A DNA stretch of 64,000 nucleotides. Origin: Pseudomonas oryzae. Its GTDB lineage: Bacteria > Pseudomonadota > Gammaproteobacteria > Pseudomonadales > Pseudomonadaceae. This document shows positions 33,842 through 37,622 of the stretch, piece after piece. The position numbers were made by a program, and so were the translations under genes. A model generated the notes under the pieces. It was given only the letters and a program-made list of their open reading frames with translations. It was not told the origin of the DNA and made no database searches. Every line of letters starts with the position of its first letter. Position 1 is the stretch's first letter. Where the stretch lies: the NCBI RefSeq assembly GCF_900104805.1, contig NZ_LT629751.1, positions 4,300,501 through 4,364,500 of the forward strand, in the 5' to 3' direction.

Positions 33842-33845
<4 letters not shown>

Positions 33846-34315
33846 GCAAGTTCCCGATGACTGTCCAGGGCGTGCGCGCCCTGGAAGAGGAGCTGAAGCT
33901 CCTCAAGACCGAGCGGCCGAAGATCAGCCAGGCGATCGCCGAGGCGCGCGAACTGGGCGATCTCAAGGAAAACGCCGAGTACCACGCCGCCCGCGAGCAG
34001 CAGGGACTGATGGAGGCGCGCATCCGCGACATCGAGGCCAAGCTGTCCAATGCGCAGGTCATCGACGTCAGCGCGATTCCGCGCACCGGCAAGGTGATCT
34101 TCGGTACCACCGTGGACATCGCCAACTGCGAGACCGACGAGACGGTGACCTACCAGATCGTCGGTGACGACGAGGCCGACATCAAGGCCGGCAAGATCTC
34201 CGTCAGTTCGCCCATCGCCCGTGCCCTGGTGGGCAAGGAGGAGGGGGACGTGGTGATCGTGCAGACCCCCGGCGGCAAGGTCGAGTACGAGATCGTCGAG
34301 GTGCGTCATATCTGA
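33842..34315 (+). CDS. greA: transcription elongation factor GreA
   Basis: 157-aa factor that stimulates RNA cleavage in backtracked RNA polymerase. N-terminal coiled coil with the acidic tip ([20 protein letters not shown]) and C-terminal FKBP-like domain ([18 protein letters not shown]). The ATG overlaps the carB stop by 4 bases, coupling it to carAB. Confidence 0.97.
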
Positions 34316-34322
34316 GCGGGCG

Positions 34323-34733
34323 CTGCCGCGCCCGCCGGCACGCGCCGGCGCCATCAGCTGGCGCCTGGCGCAGACCTTCTGGGTCGGTGGGCTGTGGCTG
34401 CTCTACTTCGTGCTGCTGCCGGCGCTGGAGCACTACGGTCTGGCGCCGGTGCTGCTGGCGGATATCTCCGCCAGTCTGGTGCCCCTGCTGCTCGGCTTCG
34501 CCGGCTTCTGCGCCCTGCTGCAGAAGCTGGTGCTGGCCCAGGCGGAGGGGTTGCGCGGGTTGTGGGGGGATTTTCGCGGGCAGCTGCTGAGCGCGGTGCT
34601 GCTGCTGGTGCTGGCGTTCTTCGCTGGATCCTGGCTGGAGCTGGCTGACGAGCGCTGGCAGCTGTTCTGTTACCTGGCCGTGGCGACCTGCGGTCTGGTG
34701 CTGGTGCTGCAGCCGGTCCCCGGCGAGCAGTGA
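34323..34733 (+). CDS. DUF4149 membrane protein with no canonical start codon
   Basis: Small inner-membrane protein with about four helices, in the usual place between greA and yhbY. The first helix (RLAQTFWVGGLWLLYFVLL) is encoded in frame. From the upstream stop at 34254 to residue 30, however, there is no ATG, GTG or TTG: the first is GTG at 34410, inside helix 1. The most plausible start is CTG at 34323 (136 aa) or ATA at 34308, which overlaps the greA stop. Function unknown; the frame is intact, so a non-AUG start is more likely than decay. Confidence 0.65.
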   Translation: MPRPPARAGAISWRLAQTFWVGGLWLLYFVLLPALEHYGLAPVLLADISASLVPLLLGFAGFCALLQKLVLAQAEGLRGLWGDFRGQLLSAVLLLVLAFFAGSWLELADERWQLFCYLAVATCGLVLVLQPVPGEQ

Positions 34734-34738
34734 GAGAC

Positions 34739-34764
34739 CGGGCGATGCCGCGCGGCATCGCCCG
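34739..34764. terminator. hairpin between DUF4149 and yhbY genes
   Basis: Perfect 12-bp arms (cgggcgatgccg / cggcatcgcccg) with a 2-base spacer between two convergent genes. There is no T-run, but position and stem strength suggest a 3'-end element for both. Confidence 0.55.
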
Positions 34765-34772
34765 GGCGCCAC

Positions 34773-35084
34773 TCAGATCGAGTGGCGGACGATGTTCGAC
34801 AGCTGGCGGTTCTGCTTGGCCGCCTTGCGATAGACCAGCGCCATCTTGCCGATCACCTGCACCAGTTCGCAGCGCGCCTGCTGGCACAGCTCGTCGATCA
34901 GGGTGCGGCGGTCGTCGCGTTCGGTCAGGGCGAACTTGACCTTGATCAGCTCGTGATCGTTCAGTGCCCGCTCCAGTTCGGCCAGTACGCCTTCGGTCAG
35001 GCCGTGTTCCGCGACTATCAATACCGGATTCAGGTGGTGGCCGATAGATTTGTATTGTTTCTTCTGCTCGTTGGTGAGCGGCAT
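34773..35084 (-). CDS. yhbY: CRM-domain RNA-binding protein YhbY
   Basis: 103-aa ribosome-assembly factor of the YhbY/CRS1 family that binds 50S precursors. It starts MPLTNEQKKQYKSIGHHLNP at 35084, then VLIVAEHGLTEGVLAELERAL and the GxxG-like loop. A longer frame to 35189 would run into the divergent rlmE start region and is rejected. Normally divergent from rlmE; here rlmE is decayed. Confidence 0.95.
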   Translation of the reverse strand: MPLTNEQKKQYKSIGHHLNPVLIVAEHGLTEGVLAELERALNDHELIKVKFALTERDDRRTLIDELCQQARCELVQVIGKMALVYRKAAKQNRQLSNIVRHSI

Positions 35085-35166
35085 AATCTGACCCTTGCGT
35101 CCGATCCAGTGAAAAGCGGCAGCTAGTGTACCCGAGAGTCGGTATGCCGCCCAGATGAGGTGCCCC

Positions 35167-35553
35167 GTGGCCCGTTCCAAGGCCAGCACGCGCTGGCTGA
35201 AAGAGCATTACGACAACCGCGTTAAGATGACGCAGAGTGGCGGCTATCGCTCGCGCGGCCCCTCGAGGCAATCGGAGAGCAGCCGGTAGACCTTGTGATT
35301 TCCGACATGGCCCCCAATTATGGGTAGGGGGATGGCTGCTTCCCAGTTGCGCGTTCTGTGGCTGTACGCATGGGGGCGGATGTGGGGGCGCTCGGCGGCA
35401 TTTTCCGATCAGGTTTTTTCCGGGCGAAAGCCTCGGCGCCAGCCACGGGAAGGTGTGCGAGTCGTTCGACAAGATGCAGATGTGCAGATGAGTTCGTCGC
35501 GTGAACGCTCGCGCGAGCAATCCCTGCTCGCTCGCGGCTTCCGCGGGGCCTAG
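35167..35553 (+). pseudogene. rlmE: decayed rlmE (ftsJ/rrmJ), 23S rRNA U2552 2'-O-methyltransferase
   Basis: Three collinear fragments of RlmE in different frames. (1) GTG at 35167: VARSKASTRWLKEHYDN... to GGYRSR, then a TAG at 35287 after 40 codons. (2) Another frame, 35262-35327: LEAIGEQPVDLVISDMAPN, the catalytic-Asp strand, then TAG. (3) A frame near 35400-35491, IRFFPGE...SFDKMQM, corresponding to the VKVFQGE...FDKVQM region, with a stop at 35489; after one more frameshift SSSRERSREQSLLARGFRGA reaches TAG at 35553. The SAM-binding DLGAAPGGW region is gone (roughly 75 codons missing between fragments 1 and 2). The whole spans 387 bases against the usual ~620. It lies exactly where rlmE belongs, between yhbY and ftsH. 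Multiple lesions exclude a single sequencing error. Confidence 0.88.
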
Positions 35554-35699
35554 ACTGCAGCATGACCCGTGGTGACGGGTCAAACCAGGTTACAACCCGC
35601 TCTGCCAGCAATCGGGCGGCTGTAGTAAGTTAGGGCGGCGCAGATCCGGCCGTCATGTGAAGCGGTTTCCAGGCGGGGCCGGTCAGAGAGGGTAGGCAA
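35554..35699 (+). promoter_or_regulatory. ftsH leader region
   Basis: 146 bases between the rlmE remnant and ftsH with no coding signal. gacccgtggtgacgggtc (35570-35580 area) can form a short hairpin. gagagggtagg at 35686-35696 is the ribosome-binding site for the TTG start of ftsH. With rlmE decayed, ftsH must rely on the old rlmE promoter upstream of 35167 or on one here. Confidence 0.4.

Positions 35700-37622
<1,923 letters not shown>

Follow-up and report, generated by a model that had tools for sequence, protein, structure and literature searches.

The targets of enzymes that modify ribosomal RNA are highly conserved, and these enzymes are commonly viewed as products of vertically inherited housekeeping genes. 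In E. coli, the Um2552 methyltransferase is RlmE (FtsJ, RrmJ; solved structure 1EIZ), for which K38 and D124 are named as catalytic residues (PMC8854578), and single loss of rlmE slows growth 2-4-fold (PMC11194073). The human mitochondrial A-loop is served by a pair of enzymes, and the action of MRM2, the orthologue of RlmE, depends on MRM3 having methylated the next base beforehand (PMC8854578). Two further bacterial enzymes belong to this background: RlmP of B. subtilis (7QIU), which forms Gm2553 next to U2552, and RlmR of T. thermophilus (9MUK/4X3L), which targets Um2552 (PMC12123411). Xenologous gene displacement, the displacement of a gene by a horizontally transferred orthologue of another lineage, is already known as a process (PMC3082293); a recurrent, cassette-linked case involving rlmE was not found described in the open-access papers searched. 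No description of a second rlmE lineage or of rlmE displacement in Pseudomonas was found there either, and excerpts of PMC4119055 contain nothing on these subjects.

Here, two types of RlmE are distinguished, the native type (type N) and a second, different RlmE lineage (type X). It is very probable that the native rlmE decayed in the source species after a horizontally acquired type X RlmE took over. Judged by sequence comparison across the family, the case is one of recurrent xenologous gene displacement. It is like the described process in that the resident orthologue is lost after a divergent homologue arrives at another site, and in the incongruence of the gene trees; it is unlike it in its many recurrences with the same replacement lineage, in the graded decay of the resident gene, and in the linkage of the newcomer to a second methyltransferase gene.

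The rlmE Remnant Between yhbY and ftsH

The window, that is, the whole stretch of 64,000 nucleotides analysed here, covers positions 4300501-4364500 of contig C1 in the source genome (G000), a single-contig genome of 4.64 Mb that groups with Pseudomonadaceae. It holds part of the conserved order carB-greA-yhbY-(rlmE)-ftsH-folP-glmM, with greA at 33842..34315 (+ strand), yhbY at 34773..35084 (- strand; identified from the open reading frames and by tblastn against relatives) and ftsH at 35700..37622 (+ strand), so that yhbY and ftsH mark the canonical slot of rlmE on its upstream and downstream sides. The native rlmE remnant lies in this slot at 35167..35553 (+ strand), with 387 nt left of the original ~624 nt. 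Aligned with intact rlmE genes from four genomes of the genus, the remnant retains both the GTG start at 35167 and the conserved TAG stop at 35553, in exact agreement with the bounds given in the preliminary description.

Compared with the intact gene of the same-genus genome G007, the remnant has lost 3 nt in codons 17-18 (at 35216/35217) and 220 nt at a junction at 35257..35258 (+ strand), gained 1 nt at 35318, and lost 14 nt at 35399/35400 and 1 nt at 35488/35489. The 220-nt deletion removed codons 32-105, including the SAM-binding motif, and together with three smaller indels it makes four frame-shifting lesions in total. The preliminary description had foretold a deletion junction near 35255-35262, a missing SAM-binding region and at least three frame changes, all of which were found. 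Its "40-codon N-terminus" has to be shortened, because 31 codons precede the big deletion, and the several stops that it noted are present through the frame changes; in the intact gene's register there is none.

Decay in place of an rlmE gene, as the preliminary description proposed, is upheld by two further observations. The local alignment score of the remnant against intact G007 rlmE was 206, and 300 shuffles of dinucleotide blocks gave a mean of 21.1 and a maximum of 31, which places the match of the fragments far above chance. Substitutions against G007 at the three codon positions numbered 27/35/34 in the remnant vs 8/9/35 in the intact copy of G004, and the pattern in the remnant is neutral and unconstrained. 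The locus thus combines rlmE similarity above chance at the canonical position with a broken frame and relaxed constraint, the two marks of a pseudogene. A search of window positions 34300-36000 gave no known structured RNA in the remnant at E 0.1.

When the same locus was compared in the genus (n = 8), type N was found broken in four genomes, with differing lesions, and intact in the other four (G001, G002, G004, G007). G003 retains a copy of nearly full size that lacks the start, is short of 1 nt, and has 4 extra nt and two stops; a 492-nt deletion is common to G005 and G006; and the lesion set of the source genome differs from both. A first point mutation common to the broken copies of the genus is possible. 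The ~100 nt before ftsH (window 35590-35700) are largely conserved in 8/8 same-genus genomes, with rlmE broken in 4/8. This stretch is probably an ftsH leader or promoter and may limit the extent of the deletions.

An Intact RlmE of a Second Lineage

A search of the source genome with Pfam FtsJ detected an intact RlmE of 206 aa (type X) at G000:C1:990223-990840 (L007:10224-10841), on the same contig as the remnant and 3.3 Mb away. The Pfam match (PF01728, C1:990304-990834) is full-length at 187.8 bits (cut-off 24.1), and the NCBIfam RlmE model NF008390 is passed with 304.6 (cut-off 269); the second NCBIfam model, TIGR00438 (cut-off 300.15), is failed by X (260.7) and by intact N (265.1) alike. 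Similarity to E. coli FtsJ (1EIZ) extends across the whole solved chain (E 6.5e-63), and K35, D121, K161 and E196 of X are invariant across seven aligned RlmE. We take K161 and E196 to be catalytic as members of a K-D-K-E set, and assume that the first two residues correspond in number to K38 and D124 of E. coli. X therefore resembles the E. coli enzyme over the whole chain with the catalytic residues kept; it is unlike the E. coli entry in being unlinked to yhbY/ftsH and in sharing 63-64% identity with the native RlmE of its genus.

Substitutions between X of the source genome and X of G003 number 2/2/20 by codon position, a distribution which indicates that X is under purifying selection. 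Its base composition is host-like (GC3 0.889 vs 0.891 for ftsH) and thus does not point to a recent foreign origin. A plasmid origin of X was rejected, since the best of 45 matching plasmid records reached only 64% (Amphritea). X is predicted to make Um2552 in 23S rRNA, and RlmE function in the source genome is probably not lost. The preliminary description had presented a near-universal gene as a pseudogene. This applies to the native copy, which is broken; a loss of function does not follow, given the intact type X RlmE elsewhere in the genome. Among the compensations it listed was a second rlmE, and this one was found.

The Cassette of X and Its SpoU Partner

In the source genome, X is divergent from a gene for an FAD-dependent protein and a gene for a SpoU/SPOUT RNA methyltransferase. 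The same arrangement was found in 30 of 35 Pseudomonadaceae records (L051-L085); in four others, of the P. mendocina/oleovorans type, the SpoU gene adjoins X without the FAD gene, and the remaining record is a cut contig. Downstream of X, 21 kinds of neighbourhood occur in 37 Pseudomonadaceae loci, although missing similarity may also reflect gene turnover. The SpoU gene (>=80% identity) is present in 36 of 119 Pseudomonadaceae genomes, namely in 33/33 X carriers and in 3/86 others, the next best match being 34%, and its association with X is strong (Fisher p 2.7e-26, kinship ignored). The three others (G156, G107 and G142; L292, L293 and L294, respectively) are N-only genomes that hold SpoU and FAD genes at 83-94% identity and no X, and their similarity to the X carriers ends shortly upstream of the X start. 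The cassette genes can thus separate, and the resident gene is not always the loser. In a sample of 59 genomes searched for the FAD gene, 14/14 X carriers have it at >=89% and nine N-only genomes at 62-84%; the stretches fetched around it from eight of these nine gave no match to SpoU or X.

Within the genus, X (93-100% identical), the SpoU gene and the FAD gene accompany the broken N in all four genomes concerned (G000, G003, G005, G006). The four genomes with intact N are without X and without the SpoU gene, to which they gave only partial matches of 26-28%; the FAD gene is absent in G007, the sole N-only genome of the genus in that search. Because the cassette site is identical in all four carriers, the genus probably acquired the cassette once, followed by separate decay. 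A clean empty cassette site was not found in the genus in a search that left out flanking genes in N-only genomes.

The SpoU protein matches PF00588 (95.1 bits, cut-off 29.7) and the MRM3-like substrate-binding domain PF22435 (52.9 bits, cut-off 27). Its best solved chain is 7QIU, that is, RlmP, with 86.2 bits for the single sequence and 104.6 bits with a 15-sequence profile, and the six chains that follow include those of MRM3 and RlmR, RlmR standing sixth and seventh among solved chains in the profile search. By domain make-up, the partner is assigned to the RlmP/MRM3/RlmR group as a putative member; it differs from RlmP and RlmR in that the similarity is remote even for RlmP and the target is not readable from sequence. 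An identification as RlmB was rejected, since TIGR00186 gave 58.3 bits of the 160.15 needed, and so was a role as rlmB replacement, a separate RlmB over cut-off being present in 8/8 genus genomes.

The cassette recalls the mitochondrial MRM3 and MRM2 pair in joining an RlmE, the MRM2 orthologue, with a SpoU enzyme that bears the MRM3-like domain; unlike that pair, it consists of two bacterial genes in one locus, and the SpoU target is putative. By this analogy, the cassette might be a mobile A-loop module in which SpoU would make Gm2553 first and the cognate RlmE would then make Um2552; the native RlmE would be poor on the pre-modified loop, so that the resident would decay repeatedly and mostly in one direction. 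We regard this as a speculative and rather unlikely extension, and a strict form of it is opposed by the three genomes with SpoU and intact N but no X and by the two in which N and X are both intact. For the decay of N, neutral redundancy is a sufficient explanation.

Several features of the cassette sites were also recorded. Insertion linked to tRNA genes was rejected, as 13 of 14 loci scanned are without tRNA or tmRNA, the exception being L053, where two tmRNA predictions overlap. The slot of the oleovorans-type group, flanked by what we take to be a typA-like gene and a Rieske-type gene, holds SpoU-X, SpoU-FAD-X, or ~2.1 kb of unrelated DNA (three genomes). In G089 (L281:6960-9073), a close relative of this group, the slot is filled by unrelated DNA of ~2.1 kb, which presumably includes a nucleotidyltransferase-like gene, with a typA-like gene alongside. 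Beside the cassette of the source genome lies a Schlafen/AlbA_2-type gene (L007:5733-7277; GC 43% vs 67% for the window), in a stretch without any match >150 bp at the same site in G003, G005 and G006. Steroid-degradation-like genes (L007:11069-13996) adjoin the genus cassette in all four X carriers; they include an HsaA-like monooxygenase (396 bits, below the NCBIfam cut-off of 450) and an FAD enzyme which we presume to be KstD-like.

Distribution and Decay in Pseudomonadaceae

The 119 Pseudomonadaceae genomes comprise 84 with N only, 32 with X and without intact N, one with both intact (G135, 1/33 X carriers), one with a fragment (G138) and one with no match (G131), the last two being incomplete assemblies. 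X of the 33 carriers has 77-100% identity, and N of the 84 N-only genomes has 60-66% identity to X. In an 89-genome search drawn from the same 119, 23 genomes had X, 66 had intact N, and none had both intact.

The yhbY-ftsH interval was surveyed in 34 X carriers, namely the four of the genus and 30 of the 33 Pseudomonadaceae records L053-L085 (all except L062, L079 and L083), a sample which overlaps the 119-genome set. One carrier (G045) has N intact, 15 have it in a broken but recognisable state, and in 18 it was undetectable (tblastn E 1e-3), the interval there measuring 293-726 bp. N-only genomes, of which 30 were surveyed (31 rows, as one genome appears twice), have an interval of 847-921 bp, and N matched full length. 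The resident intact copy is thus missing in 33/34 carriers of the locus survey and in 32/33 of the overlapping family sample. A range of decay stages is seen, from both copies intact through one internal stop (G025), one frame-shift in a well-kept gene (G023, G028) and fragments to nothing detectable. On a species-tree proxy (ftsH and yhbY, two genes, 67 rows with one genome twice, short search), the X/N state changes 10-11 times, and at least six changes are forced by well-supported branches. If losses of N are irreversible, no fewer than 12 are needed on the tree as drawn, or seven when only branches with support >=95 are kept; the two both-copy genomes were scored as having N and, for the lower figure, forks were resolved towards fewer losses.

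Two points on naming arose from the surveys. G045 (L078/L201, recorded as Pseudomonas taiwanensis xwS3) joins G135 near P. resinovorans by ftsH, presumably not where its name would suggest, and may be misnamed. L060 and L065, both named Pseudomonas fluvialis, stand apart in the X tree and in the ftsH tree, so one of them may be misnamed.

Origin of Type X and Alternative Explanations

X forms one clade within Pseudomonadaceae together with Kushneria, with relatives in other gammaproteobacteria, and no single donor stands out. Its closest relatives by identity are copies of Cellvibrio, Gilvimarinus and Kushneria (75-77%). Kushneria phyllosphaerae (Halomonadaceae) holds the same cassette as the Pseudomonadaceae carriers, elsewhere in the genome than the ftsH-linked rlmE, and that rlmE (L299:2240-2851) has an internal TGA stop and altered motifs. 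We propose that the cassette with X would arrive by horizontal transfer and recombination; X would then make Um2552 and render N redundant, and N would decay neutrally.

The best surviving alternative is vertical descent with differential loss, in which N and X were both present in the family ancestor and one or the other was lost in each lineage. Such a history fits the two genomes that keep both intact (G135, G045), the three N-only genomes with SpoU and FAD, which look as if X had been lost there, and the composition of X, which is not foreign. It conflicts with the trees of the cassette and of X, which disagree strongly with the ftsH backbone. In tests on the 32 carriers that hold X, FAD and SpoU, the combined alignment of the three genes rejected the well-supported ftsH splits (dlnL 346.7, AU p 5e-67), as did X alone (dlnL 143.3), and ftsH rejected the cassette splits (dlnL 431.9). 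A narrower test, in which cassettes of the luteola type were kept apart from the resinovorans group, gave a borderline result for the cassette (AU p 0.043) and a non-significant one for X alone (p 0.25). The 119-genome search gave no X remnant in N-only genomes among the matches listed, the four same-genus N-only genomes are also without the SpoU gene, and the downstream X neighbourhoods vary widely. Part of the distribution could be due to differential loss; as the account of the whole, we hold it improbable.

A genuine absence of RlmE function, made good by other factors, which was the emphasis of the preliminary description, would have a precedent in E. coli, where overexpression of Obg or EngA can rescue RlmE loss (PMC11194073, PMC8854578). 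With an intact, conserved RlmE of a different lineage in the same genome, neither ObgE/EngA nor another U2552 methylase need be invoked as compensation, and this explanation is most unlikely.

Relocation or duplication within the genome, by which the native gene would have been copied elsewhere and the original decayed, accords with the presence of a second copy beside a decaying original. Under it, X should be a copy of N; yet X is 63-64% identical to the N of its genus vs 92-93% between N of G007 and the other three intact N, and it is nearer to the Cellvibrio, Gilvimarinus and Kushneria copies, outside the N clade. The RlmE tree (105 proteins, short search, SH-aLRT support only) places X (40 rows) and N (32 rows) in separate clades with SH-aLRT of 99 and 100, respectively, which contradicts an origin of X from the native gene and leaves this explanation next to no credence. 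A sequencing or assembly artefact in the window has a negligible chance and is ruled out, for although frame-shifts can be sequencing errors, the large deletions, the even substitution load over codon positions, the different lesions at the same locus in G003 and in G005/G006, and the intact replacement elsewhere do not fit it.

Significance

Under displacement of the native gene by type X, the native locus has lost its rlmE no fewer than seven times in one family (on well-supported branches; 12 times on the tree as drawn), in lineages with another RlmE. The range of decay stages provides natural replicates for studying the displacement of a housekeeping gene, and the RlmP/MRM3-like gene linked to X points to a possible bacterial two-enzyme A-loop system that is directly testable. 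For the genomes of this family, an rlmE missing at its usual locus does not mean that the enzyme is missing.
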